Positions 23,142-42,349 of a stretch of DNA of 64,000 bases are shown here, in pieces (position 1 is the first letter of the stretch; each line of letters starts with the position of its first letter). The notes beneath the pieces were generated by a model. The model was given only the letters and a program-made list of their open reading frames with translations. It was not told the origin of the DNA and searched no databases. Source of the DNA: Spiroplasma sabaudiense Ar-1343 (GTDB lineage: Bacteria; Bacillota_I; Bacilli_A; Mycoplasmatales; Mycoplasmataceae); contig NZ_CP006934.1 of assembly GCF_000565215.1 (NCBI RefSeq), positions 930,001 to 994,000 on the forward strand. The letters run 5' to 3'. The position numbers were made by a program, and so were the translations under genes.

Positions 23142-25823
23142 TTATTTTTCTCCTTTTTTAATAATTGTTTTAAATTTATTTGCACCAATTTTATTAACTA
23201 GTTTTTTTTCTTGTCTTTCCAATGAATTTGATTCAACAAGGTTAGAACCGATATCTAAAATTTTTATTTCAACTTCTTTTTCTGATGGATTGTACAACCT
23301 AAAAACCTGTTCATTATTGTTATAACTTTTTTTAGCACAAGCTACGAAGAAATTATTTTCTCACTCAAACAAATTGCTAGGCTTTGGAGCTTTATTCAAC
23401 TGGTCCACTTTTGACATTCAAAATGTTTGTCCCTTAAATAAGTAAACTGAAATATTTTGTTTTTGAAAAGCAGAAGTTGGTAGGAAGTGCATTTTTGAAG
23501 CAACTGCAATATTCTTATCGTTTGAAATTTTAAAGTTAAAATTGAACTCCATTTCTTCTAACAGATTACTTTCGGGAGTTGCATATGGATAATCATTGAT
23601 TCCACTGGCTCTTCCTGGACGATATTCAAGACCTCTTCTTCCAATTAAAGAAACTCCCCTAAATAAAGTTACAGCAATTGTTGAAAAATCTTTATCAATA
23701 ATTTCATATTCATTATTTCCAATAGTAAAAATTGAGTATTTTGTTTCTCCTTCTGGATTTAAATATACTAATGACTCACAAGTTTCAATGCAAACCGGAT
23801 TATCTTTTCATTTGTCTTGTTCTCAACGATTTGCATTTCATTGATCGATAACTGGTCGCTTAATTAAAGATCCTGATTGATCAGCAAAAGAAAAATCGTT
23901 TTTAGTTTTTGTATTTCATAAGATTCTTCAACGGATATCTTTTGCCTTATTTAATAAATTAATTTTTATATCAACACTTTCTGAATTTATAAATATTTTG
24001 ATTAAAATATTTTGGTCAATTTTTTTTGGCGACTCAAGACTTTCAAAAACTTTTCAGTTCTGATCAACAACTACTAAGTTATTGTCCTGGATGGTGAAAT
24101 TGTTTGTACTGATTAATTCGTTTATTTTTTTACGATTTATTTTAGATGGTGAAAAATCATAGGTATCACCAGCATCAAACATTGCTTCTAAAGAAATAAT
24201 TGTTTCTTTACTATTTTGCGTCATTAATATATCACCATTTTTTAGAACTTCAATTCCAATGTCATTTATCTCAAGTTTGTTTTTGATTTTCTTTTCAAAA
24301 ATTGGGGCGCTTACTAATTTTAATTCATCATCGGACACTTTGAATATATCATAAAATAATCCATCAATTTTTGGTGTCAGAAATTCAATTTCAGTTACAT
24401 AAAATCCTTTTTCATCGTTATTTGTTGTGTTATAGTGGGTTTCATTTTCAATTATGAATTGATCGCGATTATAAAATTTTTGATTAATGATTCTATAGCT
24501 AATTGAACTTTGATCTTTAAAAATTTCAAACTTTTTGTTTCGAGTAACAATTGGCATTACAACTTTAACTGACCTTCTAAAAGGTAGAGGATTAAAAATT
24601 ATTAAATCTTTTTTTTGTAAATTTAAATATTCAGTGATTCTTCTTTTAATTAAAACGGTTTGAGATTCAAGCATCGACTGAACTTGTTTTAATCGAATAA
24701 TTATTTCGCGGTTTGTTTCATCCGTGCAGCTACCTCCAAGACTATCGTGAGCATGACATTCAAGTAGTAGTTTATTTGCTTTTTCAAAAATTCTTTCAGG
24801 ATATTTGCCTGTAAATTTTTGATAAATTAGACCCATGGGCTCTGCTTCATTATACAATTGATTTTCAACTTTTTTTGAAAGTAATTTAATATCGTATCGA
24901 GAAGAGGCAATGGTTCTGTGAGTTCTTGAGTACTGTCCGTATTTTAACTCTCCTTGAATTTCATTTTTGGACAAATTTTTTGTAGATTTTTTAATATCCT
25001 CACAAAATGAATCATAGTCGCTTAAAATTCATTCATGTTCTAAATCAATTTTATTTAATTCGTCAACAAATAAAGGTAATCATTCAATAATCGGGGCTTG
25101 ATCCGAACCAAAGGGAAAGCACAATACATTACCGGTATTTTTATTTACTTTTTTTCAATTAATTAAATCTTCGTGAGTCGAACTAAACTTATCTAGATAC
25201 TCTTTTGCCAAGTCACTCATATTTTTTTTATCTCATTTTTTATAAACAGAGTCAAAGGCTCAAAAAGTTAAACCATATCCATATTTAAAAATGTTGTAAA
25301 AGTCAACTTTTGATCCATCAATTCCTTTTCATTCACTATAAACCGATTTTTCAATGTGATCTTGATTAACACCTCTTCACTGAATCAAAGTGTCGCACTC
25401 AGTTGATTTTAGTATTTGTGGCATGTTAGAATTAAAACCAAAAGAATCGGGAGTGTAGGCATTTTTTAAGCTGTGACCTCTTTTTTCTGAACCCAGTTTT
25501 CCGATAACTAAATTTCTAATAATTGATTCCCCATTTGTGTTAAACATATCTGGTTGAGTATACCATGGTCCAACCAATAACTTTTTGTCTTTGATTAATT
25601 TATTAATAATTTTTTCGTCTTCTGGAAAATAGCTTAAATAGTCGTCAATAATTGACAGCTGACTATCAAAAACAATACTTTTAAAACTTTCAAGATTATC
25701 ACAAATTGATTTTAGTTTTTGAATATTATCTACTAAAAAAACTGTTGATACTTCTTTGGTAAAATATCACTCTTTATCCCAATGGGTGTGGGGAACAAAG
25801 TGAATTCTTCATTTCTTATTCAT
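23142..25823 (-). CDS. Alpha-mannosidase, glycoside hydrolase family 38 (copy 1)
   Basis: 893 aa, the length of bacterial MngB/SpGH38 enzymes, with no signal peptide, so intracellular. The zinc-site motif is VPHTHWDKEW (H14, D16). The predicted nucleophile is D126 in TPDSFGFNSNMPQ, and the later HAHDSLGG motif supplies the remaining zinc His (H359). It probably hydrolyses alpha-mannosides or their 6-phosphates delivered by the PTS. It is preceded by GAGGATAA overlapping the stop of the second GH38. UGA-Trp include W5. About half of the sequence aligns by eye with copies 2 and 3. Confidence 0.9.
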
Positions 25824-25827
25824 TTTT

Positions 25828-28455
25828 TTATCCTCTATCTATAATAAATGTTTTTATTTCATAACTTTTAAATACTAAATTTGGTTTGCAATTTTTTCGC
25901 TCTAACAAATTGACTTCTTCTTTAATTTTGAAAGCCCCCTTGGTTTGTAAAGCTTCTTTTTTATCTGAGGAATTAAATATTCTCAATATAATTTGGTTTT
26001 TAGATTCGTGTTTTTTAATTGCCTTAACAATTAAATTTTGATTTTCTATAGTTAATAAATTGGCAAGTTCAATTTCTCTAATATCTCCTAAATCAGATAT
26101 TAGAAATCTTTCAAATCTATTAGAATATAAATTTAAATTTTGCTTTTGATAATAGATTGGTTTTGCCAACTTATTTTGTGCAAGATTTCAAACTGAGTTA
26201 CTGATATTTTCAACAAAAAGATCAAATTCAAAATTAATTTCTTTTAGCAATTTAGAATCCTCAGTTTCAATTAAATAATCACTGGTTCCGCTTGCCCGAC
26301 CCGGTCGCCATAACAAATTATTTCTTCCCAATAACGAAACGCTTCTAAATAATGTCAATGCAATAATGTTGAATTGCTTTCCTATTATTTGGTATTCATT
26401 TGTGCCTCGTGTTATTAATCCAAACTGGTAAACATCATTTTTTAAATAAACAAATGATTCGTTGGTTTCGATTTCGATTGGTTTTTCGTTTCATCCTTTT
26501 TCATTTCAAAATTCATTTTCTTTTAACACTACTGGTCTTTTTTCAACACCATATGCCTGATTGGCAAATGAAAATTGAGAATCATAAATCTGAGAATCAA
26601 ATAAAATTCTTCACTTAATGTTTTCGTTTTTATTATTTATCGTAACTTTAAAATTTATTAAATTTTCCTGACTAATAAAAATTTTTATTAAAATTTTTTG
26701 GTCTTTTCCGTTTTTTATTGAGTAATTATTTTCAATAATTATTTCGCAATGCTTGTCAAACTCCTTGATTTTAGATTTTGAATTAATCAAATCATTGATT
26801 ATGAAATTTTCAATTGTTTCTGGGGAAAAATCATATGAGTCACCCATATCTCTTTGAGCTTGTAAAACCATTTGCTTTTCAAAATTTATATTTTTGATTT
26901 TATCAAATAAATTTATTTCACCATCAGTGGTTATAGTAATTTTTCATTTTTGATTTTCTCAAGTATTTTTATTTTTTCAATCAACGTTAACAACTTTGTT
27001 ATTCAATTCTTTAATAAATAATTTTTTAGCTTGTAGGCCTTCGAATTTAGATTCCAATAACAAAATTTTAGTTTTTCAATATCCATTTATTGCTTCTTGA
27101 GATTCTCCATTAGTACCTGTATTTATTTCCAGGTTTGGATTTATAAAAGTATTTTCCAAAATTATTTTTTCAATCTTTTTGGTTCCACAACTAATTTCAA
27201 AATCTTGGGTTTTTGTAAAAATTGTCATTTCCATATCTGTTTTTATTTTTTTAGGATTGGGGTTAAATAATATTAGTTCATTCACTTTACTATTATTGGT
27301 AATTGATTTAAAAATTTTTGTAATTTGAGATTGTGCTCATTGCTTCGCTCAGTTTAAACGAGCAATAACATCTTTATTTGTTGCATCCGTATTACATCCC
27401 CCAAGGCTATCGTGAGCGTGAGAAATCAAAGCACTTTTCAAAATCTTATTAATTATTTCTTTTGGATAAGCACCCCCGATTTGTTCAAAGTAAACCGCCA
27501 GTGGTTCTAGTTGTTCAAAAATTAAATTATCAACTTCTTTTGCTAACTGCTTGATATCAACTCTTTGTGATCCAATAGTTTTGTGAATTCGAGAATTTTC
27601 AGGACTTTTTAATTCACCTTTAACTGTCGGTATTTCTGTAATATTTTCAATCGCTTCAAAGTATTCATCATAACTTGATCAATACCAATCGTGTTCATTA
27701 TCAATCTTATTTAATTCTGCCAGAAAAATATCAATATACTCATTGACAGGTGCTTGATCTCCTCCCAAGGGAAGAAGTAAATTATTTGGTGAATGCGGAT
27801 TAAATTTTTTAAGCTCCCCAAGAGTTTTACCAAAATCTTTTGAAAACTTTTTAGCATAATCTGCTGCATTGTTTTGATTTAATTCCAGATAAGGGAAAAA
27901 GCTTCCCATAATTCAGTAGCCCTTTAAAAAGTTATACGATTTTATTTTAGTTCCATCCAGACCCTCTCAATAATGCAAAACAGAATTTTGCATTTTTTCT
28001 TTTGTAATTCCTCTTCAATAAATCATATTATCAAGCTCAGCTAATTTATAAATTTGTGGCATTTGACTACTTTGGCCAAAAGAGTCTGGAACATAGGCAT
28101 TGCGCATTGAACTTCCAAAACTTTCAGCCATGTTAGTGCCGATCAATAAATTTCTGACAATTGCCTCGGAAGTTGTATTAAATAAATCAGGTTGTGAATA
28201 CCATGGTCCTAAAATTATTTTATTATTTTTTATATTAGTTGCTAACTCATTTTCATTACCATTAAAAATTTTAAAATCATCAATAATGGAACTCTGGCCA
28301 TCATAGGTAAAATTTTTAAAATTTTCATTTGATTTAATTGCTTTATTAAGTTTTTCAAGATTGCCATTTAATAGTAAGTCTGAATCTTGTTTTGTGAAAT
28401 ATCATTCTTTATCCCAATGGGCGTGAGGAACAATGTGTATTCTTATTTTTTTCAT
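25828..28455 (-). CDS. Alpha-mannosidase, glycoside hydrolase family 38 (copy 2)
   Basis: 875 aa, intracellular. Catalytic set: VPHAHWDKEW (H13, D15), VPDSFGQSSQMPQ with the nucleophile Asp, and SHAHDSLGGCNTDATN. The PDSFGQ form is the one I associate with MngB-type enzymes, whereas copy 1 has PDSFGF, so the two may differ in aglycone preference. ATG start; its AAGGAGA site overlaps the MATE gene stop. The tandem arrangement of copies 2 and 1, 4 nt apart, suggests duplication and divergence within the operon. Confidence 0.9.
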
Positions 28456-30868: not shown

Positions 30869-31945
30869 TTATCTAATTCTTTTTTGCGATTCTCCATCAA
30901 ATAGGAAATACTTTTCAAATACTACATTTATTTTTTGGTCTGCTTCAACTTCAGAATTATTTGAAACGGTCACTGAAATATTTGAGTTATCATCCACGAA
31001 ACCTTTAATCTCTTTTTCTTTTCCCAATAATTCCACGTGAATTACCAAGACTTGTGTATCTGTCTTTGATTTTGAAATTTTGACAGACTCACTTCTAACA
31101 CACAAATAAATTCATTTGCTATTTTGTTTTTTTATTGTTTCGATTTCCTCTTTTGAAAGTTTAACCTTAATAGTTTTGGATTCATTTACAAAATATTCTC
31201 CCTCTAAAATACCTTTGTACTGATTTATAGTTGGGTTACCAATAAAATTGGCAACAAATAAATTTTCAGGGTTTTCATATAAATCAGTTGGTGATCCTAC
31301 TTGCTGAATTTTTTGATCATTCATCAAAACAATTTTAGTTGCCATTGTCATGGCTTCGACTTGGTCATGGGTTACATAAATAGTTGTTGATTCTAGTGCT
31401 TTATGAATTTTAACTATTTCTGTACGCATTGTCTCTCTCAACTTAGCATCCAAGTTTGATAATGGTTCATCCATTAAAAATAATTTGGGCTTACGCACAA
31501 TTGCTCGACCAAGCGCTACTCGTTGGCGTTGTCCCCCAGATATTTCGCTTGGTTTTTTATATAGTAAGTGCGTAATGTTTAAAATTTCAGCAACATCTTT
31601 GACTCTTTGATCAATTAAATCTTTTTTTGCTTTTTTCATTTTCAATCCAAAGCCCATGTTTTTATATACATTCATATGAGGATACAAAGCATAGCTTTGA
31701 AAAACCATCGCAATATCACGATCTTTTGGAGGTAAATCATTTGCTCTTTTCTCATCAAATACTAAATCTCCTTTAGTAATTGAATTTAATCCTGCAATCA
31801 TTCTTAACAAAGTAGTTTTTCCACAGCCACTAGGGCCTAGCATTACACAAAAATCTTTGTCTTCAATACTTAAATTGATATTTTCAAGCGTGTATAAGGG
31901 GTTTCCCTCATATTTTTTTGATAAATTTCTTAATTCTACTTTCAT
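30869..31945 (-). CDS. Sugar ABC transporter ATP-binding protein, MalK/MsmK type
   Basis: 358 aa. Walker A is LGPSGCGKTT, the signature is ISGGQRQRVALGRA, and Walker B is LFLMDEPLSNLDAK. A C-terminal TOBE-like regulatory domain follows (about residues 235-358) with the typical NFIGNPTIN and RSESVKI boxes. It energises import through the MalF/MalG-like permeases encoded immediately upstream. It is the last gene of the GH38/ABC operon. ATG start 5 nt after the MalG-like stop. Confidence 0.92.
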
Positions 31946-31950
31946 CTTAA

Positions 31951-33645
31951 CTATCCTTTCACTCCACCAGAAGTCATTCCTGAAACAACAAATTTTTGTA
32001 GCACCAAGAACAACACTCCAATCGGAACTGCCACTAATGTTGACCCAGCAAAGTAGGCTCCATAATTCATTAGTCTTTCACTATTGATAAACATATTTAA
32101 TCCCACCGCGACAGTATAATCTTCTTGATTTCTCAAAATTAAAGAAGGTAAAATTACATCACCAAATGGTCCGATAAAAGACATCAGTGCTATTAAAACC
32201 AACATTGGTTTACACAGCGGAAAAATAATATTTAAAAATATTCAAAAGTGAGAACAGCCATCAATCCTTGCAGCATCATCAATGTCTTGGGAAATTGAAT
32301 CCATATACCCTTTTAAAATAATTGTATTACTTGCAACTCCACCACCAACATAAATTAATAATAGCGTTGCAATTCTTGGCATATTAAATGCGTTATTTAA
32401 CAATTCGGTAAAAATATAGAAAACCAGTAGCGACGTAAATACTGGAACCATTTGAGATACCAATAGGGCAATTAAAAAACTTCTTTTACCTTTGTATTTA
32501 AATCTACTAAACGAATATGCGGTAAGTGATATAATAAATATCGTTATTATCATTGTAAAGAACCCGATTATAATTGAATTTAACAATCACTTTAAAAATA
32601 ATGTTTGTTCAAACAATCTTCGATAATTATTAAATGAGAACTCAAAATTTTGAATGTCTAAAATAACTTTTTGATTATTTAAATTAAACCCTTGCTGAAT
32701 TAATATTACGATTGGAAAAATAATTACCAAAGCTCATAATATTAAGACAACATATCTTATTATTAGCCCAATTCATTCAACTGGGGACATTGGTGGTAAA
32801 TCTGATAAATGCACCTTTACATTCATTTCGGTAATGTTTGAAAACATTTTTTCAATCAAATGATCTTTCATAAAATAGAGACTAGACTTTAAACTATCTA
32901 AAATTAAAATCATTGTGCTTGAAAAGTTATTGTAGTTCTCAGAATTAACAACTCCATCATTTTTTTTATTTTTTAAAAATGTTTCAGCTTCTAATTTTAA
33001 TAAATTGTATTCAGCAATTAAAATTCCAATTTTTGAAAAATTAATAAAGTTGTTTTGGTTGCTGGTCAAAGTTGCCAATTCCTGAGAATATATTGAAAAT
33101 ACGTTGCGACTAATATTTCAATAAGTTTTATTATTGCCTTTAACTAATTCATATTGAGAACTGATAAAAATATTTTCAATTTTTTTATTTTTCAATTCGT
33201 AGGCATTTTTTAAATTACTATAAAATTCTTTTGAGTAATCATAGGCGTATTTTAGGGCGAGACCCTTCAACAGTTCATAACTTTTGGTTACACCTTTGCT
33301 CTGTTTATCTCTTTCATAAGAAAATGAAAGTGCTGCAAATTTTAATGACAAATGATAATCAGAGTTGTTTTCTCAATTATAATTTTTTACTAGATCATTT
33401 AAAATAAGCAAAGCTGATGTGTTATAGTTTCAGTTTTTATCTTCTTTTTTAAAACAACTAATTGCTGCTGCAATATCATTGCGGTCAAAATTTATTTTTT
33501 CATTCGAATTAATGTTTAAAAAGTTTTGTCCTTTAATTTCTTTTAGGATTGAGGAAACTGCAAAAATTAAATTATCTGGAATAGTTTTTTCAGTTTTTTT
33601 TGATTTAGCATGTAATGCCAAATTTTGTTGATTGAAAGTTTGCAC
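31951..33645 (-). CDS. Sugar ABC permease, MalG type, with large N-terminal extension
   Basis: 564 aa, about twice the usual MalG length of 280-300. The C-terminal 280 residues are a standard MalG-type permease with six membrane segments and the EAA loop DDAARIDGCSHF. The first 275 residues are soluble, mostly helical and unrecognised; one hydrophobic segment then joins them to the permease core. GTG start overlapping the MalF TAG by one base (TAGTG), with GGGGGAA 10 nt upstream. Five or more UGA-Trp keep the frame open throughout, so the extension is genuinely fused. Confidence 0.88.
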
Positions 33646-35987
33646 TATGAGGTTCCCCCTTTAACTGATTTGGATTTCAGCAGCACTCCAACCGAGATGG
33701 CTACAATAACTCCTGAAACTACAATATTTAATACCGAAGCTTTAGCAACCTCTCCTCCTTGAATTAATTTGAAGATTAGCGATGCAACTGTGTCAGTTGT
33801 TCCAGCTCCTCCAAAAAGAGTCGAGTTAACATCGTATGGTCCCCCATCAAGATACAGATAAATAATACTAAAGTTATTAAAGGCGCCAATAAATTGGCCA
33901 ATTAAAATTGGAGTCATTTGGAAGATAATCAATGGGATTGTTACCTTTCAAGTTTTTTTCAAGGAGCTTGCTCCATCAATTTCTGCCGCCTCATAAAGAT
34001 CTTTTGGAATCGATTGTAAAATACCGGTAATTAAAACAAAATTAACACAATAACCCATTCAAGTTTGAATCATTAGTAAAGATATTTTTGCATATAGCGG
34101 ACTAGTTTGGAAATCATCATTTCCAAAAATATTACTTAAAATACTTCCTGGCATAAACATAACTTTGAATAACAAAATCGAAATGAATCCTGGAATCGCT
34201 CACGGCAGAATATAAACTAATCTAAATAAAATTTTTCCTTTTATTCTTTGGTTATTTACTAAACTTGCTAAGATAAATGCTAGAAAGAATGCGGCTGTGG
34301 CATTAAATACTGTTCAGATGGCAGTTCATCCTAAAACCGAAACCATTGTATTGGTTCAATCACCATTAAAAACAATTTGAAATTGTTCTCATCCAACTCA
34401 CTCAAAGTTTGATACGTTATTGGGGCCATAGTTGGTAAAAGCTAATAAAATAGTTGTAATGATTGGTACAAAAATAATAAACATTACTAATAGAAATGCT
34501 GGAATAGATGTGGCGATTGGATAACCCTCATCTTTGAAATAGTTTTTAGTTTCCAATCATGATTTAACACGTGCTCCGTTTTGTTTTGCACGAGCCACTA
34601 AATATGATTCTCTAGCAGAAACAATAATATATATAATGGCAAAACTTAAAAATAATACTCCAAGCGCTCCTTCAATAACAAAGTAGCGAGCGTCTCCATT
34701 AGATCAAAAGTATTCTGAATTACCTAGAGTAATTAATCCCAAGATTCCATTACCCTCAATATTTCCTACACCAAAAGCATAGGCAACCAGTAATCCAATC
34801 ACAATAGTTAGACCGTACATAATTAAACCCTTAATGTACTGTCCGTTATAGATTTGTCCGGTTCCAGGAATAATGAAACCCAAGAAACATGCAAAGAATT
34901 TTTTTCACTTAGCTTGTTGAACTGGTATTCTGCTTGTAGCCTCTGCATTTTTTGAAACAAGAATAAGTTTGTCATGAGCTTGTTCTTGCTTAAAGTCATT
35001 TTTAATTTTTTTAATTTCTCATTTTGCTAAAAGCACTTTGTTTGAAAAAATAATTGTTTTTTTATCAGAAATATATTTATTTTTCAAGTCTGTTCTTTTA
35101 GTTTGATACGCTTTGAAATTAATTGTTTTTTTTAGCATACCAAAAAAATTATTTTTAATATCATTGTGGTATTGTTTTTTTAATTCGTTCAAGGCTTTTT
35201 TTTGAAGTGTCTGACTTTCACTATTAATTGTGGTTTTTAATTTTTGATAATTTAAAATACTTTCACTTAATTTATGATCATATTCCGCTTTTTTAATAAT
35301 ATAAGTTTTTAAAAATTCAATCTTATTTTCTGCAAACGCCTGTTTTAAATATCCATCATATGAAAATTTTTTTTGAATCTCTCCAAGAATTACTTTTTGT
35401 TCACAAATTTTTATTTGTTTTTGAAATTTATCCATTTGCTGGAACTCTGCACTTTTTAAATAATTTTTAAATTCGGTTTTTTTTAGTGAATACTCTTGTT
35501 TAAAAACTTTAATTTGAGTTTTTGGAACGTTAACAAACTCGTTTTCATATCAATTTCCATTAGCAGCAATTAGTAATTGGTTCTCAACTCTTTGCTTTTG
35601 AGAGTCGCGATATCTGTTTTTGACTTGAGCGATGCTCAAATTGTTTGATTTTTTTTTGATTTTAATTTTTTGTTGCGTTGGTTTATAACCATAGTCAACA
35701 ATTAATTCCTGACGTCTTTTCTTATAATATTCCATTTTACTTTTATTTTTTTTGATATTTTCTTTATGAAAGATGTTATCAAAAAAATAATATAAATTTC
35801 TTTGTAGATTTCTCGTAATACTAAACTCAGCTAATTTAAATTTTCTTTCATCTTTTAAATTTCTGACAAATCCTTCATAATCATCTTTTAAAACTTTTAT
35901 ATTTGCTTTAATACTGGCATCTTTTGATAAAGACTGTAAATCGGATTTTTGAAATTTTTTAATTTGCTCAATTTTTGCAGAAGTCAT
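33645..35987 (-). CDS. Sugar ABC permease, MalF type, with basic coiled-coil N-terminus
   Basis: 780 aa. Residues 1-345 are highly charged, Lys-rich and helical, with likely coiled coils and no membrane segment. Then comes a TM2-like element (IIPGTGQIYNGQYIKG), followed by the MalF-type core with the EAA loop YEAAEIDGASSLKK near the C-terminus. The core imports an oligosaccharide with the MalG-like partner and the MalK-like ATPase. ATG start with AAAGAGGTG upstream. Function of the N-terminal domain is unknown; scaffolding or ATPase regulation are possibilities. Confidence 0.88.
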
Positions 35988-36000
35988 TTGGCACCTCTTT

Positions 36001-36546
36001 CTATAATGAATGTTTTTCCTTTTCTCTCTGGTACATTAACATTCTCTTATTAACATTTAGTAAATAAAATAAATAAATAATTAGAATCATTACTAAGACT
36101 CCTATTATTAAATTTAATATTCTGATAAATAATAAACCTTGGAAAACAAATAAAACACCGACTGTAAATAGAGTTCATATTGCCAATCAAGTGAAACAGA
36201 AGATAACTCCAATTGGTCGTTTCTTTGTAGCACGATAAATATAAAAGATAAATATAAAATCAATAAAACAATTTAATAAATACGAGGCAATCGCAAAAAC
36301 AAATACTTCACGAGCTTTAGCTATTTCTTCATTGGTTGAAGATTCACCTTTGATTATGGCATCAAGATTAAAGATATTAGAGAACAAAATTACACTCAAC
36401 AAAATTATATTGACCAAGACCGCTACTAAAACTGTTGTAAGTAATCATTTTGGTACAAAAATTTTGCTGTTCTTTTTAAAACTTTCAAAATTACTAATTG
36501 ACCGTTTTTTAATTTCTCGCAGCTCTTTTTTTTGAGCTAATTCCAT
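36001..36546 (-). CDS. Four-helix membrane protein of the sugar ABC operon
   Basis: 181 aa, not recognised. A basic N-terminus of about 32 residues is followed by four hydrophobic segments, roughly residues 33-58, 75-98, 107-128 and 133-155. It lies between the sugar-binding lipoprotein (31 nt upstream) and the MalF-like gene (13 nt downstream) and is clearly co-transcribed. Such a gene is not part of standard CUT1 importers, so it may be an accessory subunit. Two UGA-Trp (VPKWLLTT, FTWLAIW). Confidence 0.72.
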
Positions 36547-36577: not shown

Positions 36578-38557
36578 CTATTTTTTACCAAGTTCATAAT
36601 TTAGTTGGGTTAATATTCTCATTAGATTTTCACAAAACTCTAAACGTTTTTCTTGATACTGGCTTGATTTTTTGTAATCAATTGTTGTATCGGTAAGCTT
36701 TCCATAAATTGCTTCGAAGCTAGCATCTGACATTTTGAAAGCTTGATTTAAACTTGGTAACATTGCATTATTTCCATGTCAGTCATTGTTGGTAGCAAAA
36801 TCATATGAAGAAACATTTGGAGCCATTGAAAGAGTTGTATTTGAAGAAGCGTACAGGACACTGGCTAATTGAATTTGATATTTTTCTAACCGTATGATGG
36901 CAGCCTTTTCTTCTTTTTCATTGTTTTTACCTTCAAAGTTAGCTACCTCATCAATGGCTCTAGCAAATTTATTGTCTGCTATTTCTCTTAGTTTATTTTC
37001 AAAAATTTCATTCTTAGTTTGGCTATCATCAATAATTGCTAATTTCGAAGGGACTTCTAAACTTTTTGTAAATGATCTTTCAAAATTTCATTGTCCTCCA
37101 TCTTCGGAATGAACAATTTTAGTGTCTCCAGATTCATTAGTTTCTTCTTTGGCCCCAAACATAATTTGCACAAATCTTTGGGCTGCTTTTAGCCTTTGTT
37201 TGTTTGAGCCCAATCGGGAATTAAAGACGGTCATTCCACTACCTGCAGGAGCTAGTCATTTTCCAATGTCTTGTTCATCGTATTTTTGAAATTGCTCTGC
37301 TTCTTGATTTTTATCAAACAATTTAATAAATTCTAAGGGCATATAGTCCATTTTGGTAAATGATTTAAAGCCCCCCAACATATCAAAGTAGCTACTTGGT
37401 TCATAATTAATTCCAAAAGCTGATACTTGTTCATTATTAGTAATCCCACTACCCCCTGACAGCATACTTCTTTGAACTCCAGCATTTAAACTTGGGTGGT
37501 TTAAATTTAAAAATGAAGTATTTGCAGTTGTGCCTGTTAATGTTGTCTTAGCAACTTTAATTTGTTGAGAGTAGTAGTCAAATCATTTTCCCAATACTTC
37601 ATGAGCACTTGTTGTGAAATATTTATTTGAAAAGACACTTGAATATTTTCCTTCGCTAGAATCATAGTAAGGGAGGTCGGAATTGTTTAGTCAGTTAACC
37701 CCGATATCTGCTGCTTTGTAAACCTTCCCATCGATTTGATCACTCATAATATTTGAATAAACTGGGTACATTCATCACATTCCGCGGTCAAATAATGATG
37801 AAATGGTTTGGTTTTCTGTTGCTGCTGATATTTCAGTTAATTTATTGATTGAAACATTGGCATTATCAACTCACTTGATTTCACCTTCATCGCCAAATTC
37901 AGATCCTGGTTTTACAAGATTTAAATTTTTAAAATTTCGCATCGACTCATCACTATTTGAAACTAAAGCACTTCCTCCCCCAACTCCTAAGTAGGTTGTG
38001 ATTCCATATTGGGCAGGGTTTTTTTCACGAGCTTTTGGATTATTACTTTTGATTTTTGATGACTTAACAGCAAATGGCATAAAGTTAGATCATAAATCTG
38101 TTTGCGTTGCTGTTCCAGCATGCCATTTTTCCATCGCTGCTTCGGCTTGTTCACTTGAGTAGTTTAAATTTTTTAAAATTTCTCCCGCCTCAGGAATTGC
38201 ATCAGCACCATCAAGTGGTAAAATATATCCCAAAGTCGCTAATTTAGTTGCATTATCAACAGAGACCAAAAATATGTCAGGCATGTTTCGTCCCGAGTTT
38301 CCAATTGTTTGCATTTCTGTTGCTAGTTGATTGTTGTCATCGTAGCGAATTCCTTTAAAATTAAAATCATCACCATAAATTTTTTTATACTCTTCTGCCG
38401 CATCGGTGTAAAGTTTTAATGTATTTTTATCTGTATGATTATCAACATAAGAATAATAAATAGTTGTACTATTGTTAACTCCACCACAGGCAATAACTGA
38501 TAAAGTTGATGAAACTGTTAGAGCAGTTGAAGCTATAACACCTAATAATTTTTTCAA
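36578..38557 (-). CDS. Sugar-binding lipoprotein of the ABC importer
   Basis: 659 aa with a signal peptide and lipobox SVIAC (Cys24). The mature protein shows the extracellular solute-binding pattern: DFNFKGIRYDDNNQLATEMQ, MPDIFLVSVDNA, and later Trp-rich ligand-site segments (RGMWWMYPV). It is longer than the typical 400-450 aa, as in other mollicute binding proteins. It presumably captures a mannose-containing oligosaccharide, inferred from the GH38 gene 17 nt upstream. TTG start with GGGAGATAAT upstream; no ATG fits the signal peptide. Confidence 0.88.
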
Positions 38558-38574
38558 AATAATTATCTCCCTTC

Positions 38575-41343
38575 TTATTTGAGAATGTAACTTTTTATTT
38601 CATTTGGTTTAATAATATTGTTGAAGGTTTTAATTTTATTATCAAGTAAGTCAACCTCACCTTTAAAAATTTCAGTATTGATAGTTATTTCTTGTTCTGT
38701 GGGATTATATAGTCGAACAATGTCAAACTTTTGATTTCAACTTTTTTTAACCGTTGTCACCACTAAGTTGTTAATATCTTTTATGTCAACCAATGATAAT
38801 TCTCTTTGATTAATTGAAGGAATTTTTCTTTGTGTCATCACAAAGGTGTCTCCTTTTCAATGAAAGACATTAATACTTTGAGTTTGATAATAAGTATTTG
38901 GCCAACACCACTCTTTAGATTTTTTGTTTTGGGCTGCAATATTATCTTCAATACTAATTGCAAATTCAAATATCAAATCAACTTTTAAATTACTTTCTGG
39001 AGTTGCATGCGGATAATCATCAACACCCGATGCTCGGCCCTTTCGATAAATTAAATGGCGGCGACCAATATATGAGACGGCCCTAAATAAAGTTAAAGCA
39101 ATTGTCTCTTTTTCATGTCCAATGATTTGATATTCATTTGTTCCCTTGGTAAAGATAGCATGAGAAATTTCTTGATTTTTTAAGGCAACCATCGATTCCA
39201 TCGCTTCAATTTCAATAGCAACATCGACTCATTTTTCAGCAATTGATTTTTTATGGCTAGGATTGTCGATTAGTCTTTTCACTAAAGCAAAACTTTGATC
39301 AGCATAAGAGTATTGATTATTTTTTACTTGCGTCGCGCTTAAAAATCTTCAACGAATGTCGGCTGCTTGATTTGTCATAGCTAATTTAAAGTTGATTAAG
39401 TCATTTTCTAAAATTATTTGCAACTCAATATTTTGTTTTACTTTATCTTCTGAATCCAACTGCTCTGGAACAAGGAAAGTTGAGTTGATAGTCATAATCT
39501 GAATATGGTTATTATTTTCAGTGGAAACTTCAAAATCTAACAGTTCTTTTATATCTGATGGATTGTGGTGTGAGGGTGAATAATCATATGTGTCTCCAGC
39601 ATCAAATGTTGCTTCCAATTGAAACGCTTTTTGAATTGCCACATTATTTTTTTTGTTTAATAAAGTGAAATTCATTTTTTCATCAACACTAATTTTAAAT
39701 AAGTCATTTTCAATTTCATTGAAGTTTTTATTATATTTTAATGCGAAGGTATTATTTTTTGACTCTTTTACTTTTAGAATTTTATATCCCAAACCTTTTA
39801 CAATTTCGTTAAATTTTATTATAGTAGTGTATTTTCCTTTGGCGTTTTCTTCAAGAAGAATGTTAGTTGCATTAATGGGGCCTTCATCAACTATTTTGTC
39901 AGTTTCTTTATAGTCGCTTCCAAAAATATGACTATTTTCTTTTATTGAAAACTCATCATTGTTAAAGAATTTTTGAGAAACAACACTAAAAGATACTTGT
40001 TGATTTTCCTCATTAAATATTTCAAAGAAAGGATTTTTGGTATGAATTTCTAAAGTATTTTGTATTGTTCTAGTATATGGTGCAGTATTAAAAATAATTA
40101 AATTTTCATTACCCAAGCTCAAAGCATCACAAATTCTTTTTTTAATTAGGGTTGTTTGAGATTCAACAATCGCACTTGAAGCTTCTAAGCGATTTAAAAT
40201 GCTACGATTTGTTTCATCGGTGTTACATCCTCCAAGACTGTCGTGGGCATGAGAAGCTACCAATTTTTTTGTAGCATCCAATAAAATTTCAAAAGGATAT
40301 TCTCCCCCTAATCTAGAAAAGATTACAGAAAGTGGCTCTAATTCATTATAGATTTGGTACTCAACTTTTTTTGATAATTTTTTAATATCATATCGTGATG
40401 ATGTAATAGTTTTATGAGCTCTTGCGTAGCGACCATTTCTAAATTCACCCTTAATAATATTGGCATTTTCCATCACCGCAGGATCACTTATCAAATCATC
40501 CATAAATTTTTCAAAGTCTGCTAAAATTCACTCATGAACAGAATCTAATTCGTTCATTTTTTCAACAATTTCTGTTCAACCCGAAACCATTGGCATTTGA
40601 TCAGAACCTACAGGCATTAAAATACGATTATTTGAAGATGCGGCTTTAGTTTTTAAAAAATCCAGTTCTGAATCAGCAAAATTTATATAGTATTGCGCAT
40701 GTTCTTTTGCTCGAGTTTTTGAATCCCACTCTTGTCAATTGTCTGACTTTGATCACTTTTTATTATATTGTTGTAATAAACCTCCCACACCAGTGAAATA
40801 TCCATGCTTATAAAATGAATAGGTTGGGCATTTGGTTCCGTCATCAGCCTCTCAAATATTAAATAAATTATTATTTAATAGCTCATCGTCCCCTCCCCTT
40901 CAGTTAATTATTCCTTTATTTTGCGTTTTGGAAATAATTTGTGGCAAATTAGAATTGAAACCAAATGTATCTGGTAAATAACCAACTCTCATTGAACGAC
41001 CTAATTTTTCACTGAGCTTTGTTCCGATTAGTAAATTTCTTACAATTGATTCACCAGTGGCATTAAACATATCTGTTTGGGTATATCACGGACCAACAAC
41101 CAATTTATTTTCTTTAATAATTTTTTTAACTTTTCCAAGTTTTTGAGGAAAAAGGTTTAAAAAATCATCAACAACTGAATACTGAGCGTCAAATACAAAA
41201 GGGGCTTCGTTTTCGTTCCTTTCGTTGGCTTCTATAATTTGTTTCATGTTATCAACCAAATAAGCATCGCTGACTTCTTTGGTAAAATATCATTCCTTGT
41301 CTCAGTGTGTATGAGGAACAAGATATATCTTTCATTTTTTCAA
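38575..41343 (-). CDS. Alpha-mannosidase, glycoside hydrolase family 38 (copy 3)
   Basis: 922 aa, intracellular. Zinc motif VPHTHWDKEW (H13, D15), nucleophile region LPDTFGFNSNLPQ (Ser of copies 1 and 2 is Thr here), and SHAHDSLGGCNTDETN. Start is TTG, giving (M)KKWKIYLVPHTH, which aligns with MNKKWRIHFVPHTH of copy 1; the out-of-frame ATG nearby cannot encode this. AGGAG lies 9 nt upstream. It is the first gene of the ABC importer operon, so it should degrade unphosphorylated oligosaccharides brought in by that route, unlike the PTS-linked copies. Confidence 0.9.
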
Positions 41344-41734: not shown

Positions 41735-42349
41735 TTAAAAGCCTAAATCGACTTTAATGTCTTCACGAGCTTCTGGTGTTGCTTCAAAAAACATTTTTGT
41801 TTCTAGCTTAGCGTTGCTTGCCGCCACAATTGCTGGTCAAGTTTGAATTTGAGCGTTGAATTTACGAATTTCAGTATTATAAAATCTTCGTGCCGCTGCA
41901 ATATTGTCTTCACAATCAACTATTGCTTTTTGTAATTCTTTTACTACTTCACTTGCTCTTAAATTTGGATAGTTCTCAAGCGCAATATTAACTTTTCCCA
42001 AATTAGTATTTATTTTATTTTCATATTCAGCAAAATCTTGGGGAGCAATTTTCCCCGAAGTTCTTAAACTTGTTACTTCAAGTAGTGTTTTATTTTCATA
42101 ATTCATATAACTTTTTGTCGAATCCACCAATTTCATTAAAGTGTCGGCTCTTCTTCTAAGTTGAACATCTATGTCTGAAGTTGTTTCTTCAATTTTTTGT
42201 TCTTGACGTTTAAAGCTATTTTTTGTTCCAATGTACAACCACAAAGTTATGGTTAAGGTAAAGACAAAAGACATGTAAACTATGAATTTACCAAAGCGAT
42301 TTGCTTTAACTACAATTATTTCATTTTTTAATTTTGGTTCGTGTGCCAT
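41735..42349 (-). CDS. lemA: LemA family membrane protein (copy 2)
   Basis: 204 aa, the same length as copy 1 at 18600-19214, and differing at only about one residue in eight by eye (for example MAHEPKLKN versus MAYEPKLKN). It has one membrane segment and the same RRRADTLMKLVDSTKSY and NIAAARRFYN boxes. The copy sits downstream of a DUF3137-like gene, a usual lemA partner, while copy 1 has no such neighbour. This suggests copy 2 is in the ancestral position and copy 1 is a duplicate. ATG start. Confidence 0.9.

Follow-up and report, generated by a model that had tools for sequence, protein, structure and literature searches.

An extended MalFGK2-type importer in Spiroplasma sabaudiense with a helical MalF domain shared with Clostridia and a probable fifth membrane subunit

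Permeases of the MalF type in the CUT1 family are normally about 430–515 aa long, and in the MalFGK2 transporter the N-termini of both permeases are cytoplasmic and lie beside the MalK dimer. To our knowledge, the E. coli maltose operon does not encode a fifth subunit with four transmembrane (4-TM) stretches. Here we describe an operon of Spiroplasma sabaudiense Ar-1343 which is like E. coli MalFGK2 (PDB 2r6g and 9bcr) in its permease cores, its MalK, its binding protein and its 8 + 6 TM stretches, but in which both permeases carry large N-terminal extensions that have no counterpart in the E. coli structures.

The operon lies in a window of 64,000 nucleotides (the whole stretch analysed, positions 930,001 to 994,000 of NZ_CP006934.1, assembly GCF_000565215.1), in a genome made of a single contig of 1,075,953 bases where TGA encodes Trp. 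Read with code 4, the minus-strand gene order is GH38, lipoprotein, 4-TM protein, MalF, MalG and MalK, with the following features (positions in the window):

38575..41343, minus strand: GH38 enzyme gene, upstream of the substrate-binding protein (SBP) gene; genus-specific among the extended operons compared
36578..38557, minus strand: substrate-binding lipoprotein in the MalE position; lipoprotein signal, profile match to Clostridial SBPs
36001..36546, minus strand: 4-TM protein, 181 aa, without a Pfam family; conserved neighbour of extended-MalF genes
33645..35987, minus strand: MalF-like permease gene, 780 aa, ATG start; BPD_transp_1 at residues 567-762, MalF profile 157 bits
34908..35987, minus strand: MalF N-terminal extension, residues 1-360; soluble, Lys-rich, helical
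34908..35510, minus strand: conserved section within the MalF extension, residues 160-360; homologue of the N-domain on Clostridial MalF
34917..34934, minus strand: MalF junction motif R-x-x-P (R352, P355), immediately ahead of PGxGQ, where the chain enters the membrane
33645..34907, minus strand: MalF membrane core, 8 TM-like stretches; BPD_transp_1 match and hydropathy
31951..33645, minus strand: MalG-like permease gene, 564 aa, GTG start; BPD_transp_1 at residues 375-557
32791..33645, minus strand: MalG N-terminal extension, residues 1-285; soluble, helical, mollicutes only
32785..32814, minus strand: MalG juxtamembrane motif LSDLPP, residues ~278-287; also present in the short MalGs of other mycoplasmas and of Clostridia
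31951..32790, minus strand: MalG membrane core, 6 TM-like stretches; BPD_transp_1 match and hydropathy
30869..31945, minus strand: MalK-type ATPase, 358 aa; domain and subfamily model matches

Both permeases contain BPD_transp_1 with its EAA loop (57 and 57.9 bits, cut-off 26.4), the counts of TM-like stretches match an 8-TM MalF and a 6-TM MalG, and for both cores the top match in PDB and NCBIfam is the MalFGK2 maltose transporter. The ATPase scores 429 bits against the UgpC subfamily model (cut-off 432) and 367.5 bits against MalK. The lipoprotein in the binding position did not match a Pfam SBP family by itself; its profile matches, with E 2e-28, Clostridial SBPs which themselves match SBP_bac_1. 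From its sequence we classify the operon as a CUT1/MalFGK2-type sugar importer with putative oligosaccharide uptake. The other PF00528 places in the genome, which was read from stretches, are of the Opp, Pst and Pot types as judged by size and neighbours. Three GH38 genes (893, 875 and 922 aa; 23142-28455 and 38575-41343) lie on both sides of the transporter operon, with mutual identities of 34–41% in the congeneric comparisons, and 41735-42349 encodes a LemA-like protein whose top NCBIfam match, MamQ, reaches 57 bits, far under the model cut-off.

The extensions ahead of the cores are 360 aa in MalF and 285 aa in MalG, close to the ~345 and ~275 aa estimated in a first-pass annotation of this DNA. 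That annotation had set them against a usual CUT1 permease length of about 300 aa, which needs correction for the MalF type; we gauge the MalF excess against the 430–515 aa norm given above. No TM-like stretch was found by hydropathy in residues 1-360 of MalF or 1-285 of MalG. The MalF extension is 19% Lys and net positive, and that of MalG is 12% Lys; their description as soluble, helical and different from each other agrees with the hydropathy and with the homology comparisons below. Both frames are open throughout with UGA as Trp, as had been read, with in-frame TGA at codons 146 and 323 of MalF and 72, 91 and 176 of MalG, and both start sites have a good ribosome-binding site (GAAAGAGGTGCCAA-ATG for MalF and AAAGGGGGAACCTCATA-GTG for MalG, whose GTG overlaps the MalF stop).

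Two congeneric genomes contain the same operon, with a MalF of 780 aa, a MalG of 564 aa and zero indels. Compared with these genomes, the window shows 67–75% identity in the extensions versus 92–97% in the cores; dN/dS is 0.13–0.18 in the extensions and 0.02–0.04 in the cores, and third codon positions carry most of the substitutions. Both extensions are evolving under purifying selection in the genus, though faster than the cores. Could the extensions nevertheless be artefacts of wrong starts, frameshifts or fused neighbour genes, with the true permeases beginning at the cores? The MalG gene does have several Met codons shortly ahead of its core (245–286). However, Shine-Dalgarno sequences are kept at the long starts among the congeners, whereas no conserved internal Met with a Shine-Dalgarno sequence was found ahead of either core in this comparison, and we reject internal starts after the extensions. 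The coding-type pattern of codon positions and dN/dS runs along the entire genes, and long forms occur in dozens of further genomes and are so annotated in RefSeq (1021 aa in M. hyorhinis). The constancy of length among congeners, the dN/dS values, the third-position bias and the conserved long-start Shine-Dalgarno sequences make an artefact very unlikely; neither internal starts nor frameshifts, which the first-pass annotation had named as the tests of its claim, were seen in the genome comparison.

Profile comparison places the MalF extension in a wider family. In hhalign, it matched the N-terminal domain of Clostridial MalF proteins with E 1.5e-8 for the window group (residues 160–359), and with E 6.6e-15 for all mollicutes. 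Reversed and column-shuffled controls gave nothing under 0.2 against the Clostridial MalF domain, and neither did the MalG extensions. On these profiles, residues 160–360 are certainly homologous to a helical domain of ~265 aa in the MalF of Clostridia, Fusobacteria and Treponema putidum. The homology probably starts from residue 70, and residues ~60–360 may represent the whole Clostridial domain, as read from one joint alignment in which D70, K80 and N81 fall onto the Clostridial D-x-I...RKN motif. Clostridial-type extended MalFs are ~670–727 aa long with an N-domain of 250–300 aa, whose motifs are RKNLYL, FYxxYxxLxYDAELxY, GxISxKA and, immediately before PGLGQ, RRxxPxE. In the window protein P355 is invariant in alignments A2 and A5, and R352 and P355 are nearly invariant in A3. 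Window residues ~270–305 and the Clostridial GxISxKA region resemble the SHOCT helical hairpin, a weak lead; PF09851 (SHOCT) was matched by one Clostridial member with E 9e-4 to 4e-3.

When the MalG alignment was used to search the collection, 80 loci were returned, nearly all from Clostridia, Tissierellia and Fusobacteria, with T. putidum and Mycoplasma marinum in addition. The maltodextrin-type operons of the first three groups (for example Clostridium paraputrificum L116 and Oceanivirga L143) share with the window the gene order, the 4-TM protein, the MalF N-domain (250–290 aa in theirs) and the MalG motif (YLSDxPPL in theirs). Unlike the window, they have a short MalG (~297 aa, with ~18 aa ahead of the core), their enzymes are MalP/MalQ, and their MalF is without the first ~60 N-terminal residues of the window protein.

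Within the window's order, the MalF extension measures 299–663 aa at loci that keep the window's gene arrangement (258 aa in one broken gene), and the final ~200 residues are common to all mollicute extension types. The long MalF of metamycoplasmas (M. hyorhinis WP_014335442, 1021 aa, labelled in RefSeq merely as a permease subunit) is like that of the window in its core-adjoining MalF domain, its 4-TM gene and its operon order, but the N-terminal half of its 545–665 aa extension is unrelated to the window's, and its MalG is short with an NxSDxKPP motif. Eighteen short MalFs, in contrast, have 2–86 aa ahead of the equivalent core position. A tree of MalF cores, a quick one in which the program flagged four long end branches, split 57 extended from these 18 short proteins by a single branch with 99% SH-aLRT, thus implying one gain or one loss of the extension. 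By its distribution the MalF domain is old, predates the mollicutes and is shared with Clostridia and Fusobacteria; it has no Pfam name. In M. cynos NCTC10142 (NZ_LR214986.1; L043 and L198) the MalF gene is split within the extension by a mobile element: codons ~1–342 lie ~17 kb upstream and adjoin the 4-TM gene, and codons ~338–1017 adjoin MalG with an integrase gene alongside and an open permease core.

An AlphaFold2 (AF2) model built with 58 relatives predicted a five-helix bundle for MalF residues 180–355, with pLDDT mostly 75–96; residues 1–170 were mostly below 60. The MalG extension was predicted to be helical and was poorly determined (40–76), an expected outcome given that it stands almost alone in its alignment. 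No Pfam family was found for either extension beyond single weak SHOCT-like matches in one Clostridial member, no PDB sequence match fell outside the permease cores, no solved structure spans either extension, and Foldseek returned only the permease cores of known ABC importers. We found no description of the MalF or MalG extensions or of the 4-TM protein in the open-access literature.

In mollicute operons the gene for the 4-TM protein (154–195 aa) sits between those for the binding protein and MalF, and a small membrane-protein ORF occupies the equivalent position in 70 of the 73 extended Clostridial-type loci, giving a five-gene synteny of SBP, 4-TM, MalF, MalG and MalK in both mollicutes and Clostridia. 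The Clostridial and mollicute families match each other over their full length in hhalign (E 3.7e-11), and each profile alone finds members of the other set. The window gene is matched with E 1.8e-34 by a profile of which it is itself part; no Pfam entry was matched by the family. Of 196 Clostridia-class genomes, 6 contain the MalF domain, and strong 4-TM matches occur in exactly those 6, adjacent to it (Fisher p 1e-11). Among 298 genomes of the window's order, the 4-TM gene is found in 49 of 49 with a MalF-domain match; in 8 further 4-TM-positive genomes either a long MalF was seen directly, or the 4-TM gene and MalG are separated by 3.1–3.6 kb, a gap that only a long MalF would fill. The genomes tallied in these tests are related, which exaggerates the number of independent cases; more weight lies in the fact that Clostridia, Fusobacteria and Mollicutes agree. 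The pairing is not strictly obligatory, since T. putidum has the MalF domain and a profile search of its genome gave no 4-TM match. In 17 Bacilli loci with a short MalF there was no 4-TM match within the short flanks read. The short permeases of Bacilli (MalC/MalD type) and of a second CUT1 system in genome G504 (L103) have the fold and family of the window permeases but, unlike these, have 2–86 aa ahead of the MalF core and no 4-TM match in the loci read. The synteny and profile matches make the 4-TM protein a probable fifth subunit of extended-MalF transporters. A further stretch of G504 (C1:524203-529411) contains an extra 4-TM gene and, ~4.4 kb downstream of it, a fragment of MalG (143 aa); this is probably an extended-system copy in decay.

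The MalG domain has a different distribution. In the window's order MalG extensions are 276–289 aa (the window type), 516–566 aa or 31–70 aa, within an overall range of 21 to 566 aa among the operons compared. Clostridial and short mollicute MalGs begin with ~15–40 residues bearing the motif (Y/N)LSDxPP or NxSDxKPP; the window MalG has LSDxPP at 280–285, with a domain of 275 aa ahead of it, and L280, D282 and P285 are invariant in alignment A4. Homologues of the domain occur in four groups of mollicutes, the best comparisons giving E 2e-7 to 1e-16; homology to the 184-aa MalG extension of M. marinum was not detectable, and no relatives were found beyond the mollicutes. The first-pass annotation had treated the two extensions as one joint novelty and had proposed profile searches of each alone. 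Such searches took the MalF domain to Clostridia, Fusobacteria and T. putidum and kept the MalG domain within mollicutes, and in our reading of these matches the latter is a separate, mollicute-only addition placed ahead of the ancestral LSDxPP motif, with many mollicutes having the short form. In the MalF tree, short-MalG mollicutes are nested among long-MalG ones with moderate support (89 and 81), pointing to one gain and one loss, or to a single gain if the branching is wrong.

Several length variants accompany this pattern. Four loci (L075, L077, L079 and L085) encode MalGs of 801–857 aa with a further N-terminal region of ~270 aa unrelated to the remaining extension, and the 550-aa MalG extensions showed no self match, so we rejected an internal duplication. 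Across mollicute operons L074–L105, a short MalG accompanies a MalF that is longer by ~200 aa, and the two extensions sum to ~590–720 aa in most of them. This sum had suggested that the MalG domain moved onto MalF in the short-MalG branch; we rejected such a move after a null hhalign comparison of the MalG extension with the long MalF extension. In short-MalG mycoplasmas (L042, L043, L088–L101) MalK is ~400–420 aa and is longer at its N-terminus by ~45 residues.

Mollicute proteins often have long helical tails, and the extensions might simply be lineage-specific, weakly constrained growths with no specific role. Their faster evolution relative to the cores would fit this, as would their variable lengths (258 to 663 aa in MalF and 21 to 566 aa in MalG) and the restriction of the first ~60–150 MalF residues and of the entire MalG extension to mollicutes. 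It does not sit well with a MalF domain that predates the mollicutes, keeps its motifs over Clostridia, Fusobacteria and mollicutes and co-occurs with the 4-TM gene, or with the purifying selection and lack of indels within the genus. We regard weakly constrained growth as unlikely for the extensions as a whole; it is reasonable for the beginning of MalF and, to a lesser degree, for the MalG domain.

The first-pass annotation had instead proposed an added cytosolic assembly, possibly a scaffold coupling the transporter to the GH38 enzyme or to the ATPase. In the GH38 version the extensions would tether that enzyme for substrate channelling. A GH38 gene does lie upstream in the same strand run in all three congeneric genomes, but among the extended operons compared GH38 is specific to Spiroplasma. 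The MalF domain persists beside GH31, GH65 with GH13, or GH13 in other mollicutes and beside MalP/MalQ in Clostridia, where its conserved part is the same; the extension is thus found where GH38 is not. In genome G504, moreover, GH38 adjoins the short MalF/MalG system, and none was found near the extended systems within the stretches read. With neighbour enzymes varying while the extension stays, and a GH38 beside short permeases, tethering appears improbable. Of the original proposal, the two different soluble extensions are supported, and a link to the 4-TM protein is plausible given its co-occurrence with the MalF extension far outside the genus; the coupling to GH38 is not supported.

We therefore favour, at a probability of roughly 55%, a subfamily of CUT1/MalFGK2 importers defined by a cytoplasmic helical domain on MalF and a fifth, 4-TM subunit, with a putative role in assembly or regulation. 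The fifth subunit, whose gene lies between those of the binding protein and MalF, would be dedicated to importers with an extended MalF. The MalF bundle would be suspended from TM1 on the cytoplasmic side, adjoining the MalK dimer and the inward end of the 4-TM protein, and may help to assemble the transporter or adjust its activity; a constrained helical domain co-inherited with a small membrane protein suggests an accessory unit of this kind. In mollicutes, a second helical domain would have been added to MalG just before the ancestral LSDxPP motif, giving this cytoplasmic assembly another lobe, and would be absent from, or lost in, the M. hyorhinis branch. The window system would represent the extended-MalF architecture with GH38 enzymes as metabolic partners. 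More tentatively, the MalF N-domain and the 4-TM protein could form an undescribed accessory pair, with the MalG lobe completing a cytoplasmic collar around MalK that is absent from solved ABC importers; as part of this same speculative proposal, the pair could act as a regulator or assembly factor of the MalFGK2 subfamily in Clostridia, Fusobacteria and Mollicutes.

If this is true, a textbook transporter family would have a second architecture, with a permease-borne cytoplasmic domain and a fifth membrane subunit, neither with a Pfam name, spanning at least three bacterial lineages among gut, oral and animal-associated bacteria. It would account for the unusually large permeases of mollicutes, for which databases give no label beyond 'permease subunit', and it would pose a tractable question, namely what effect the MalF domain and the 4-TM protein have on MalFGK2.
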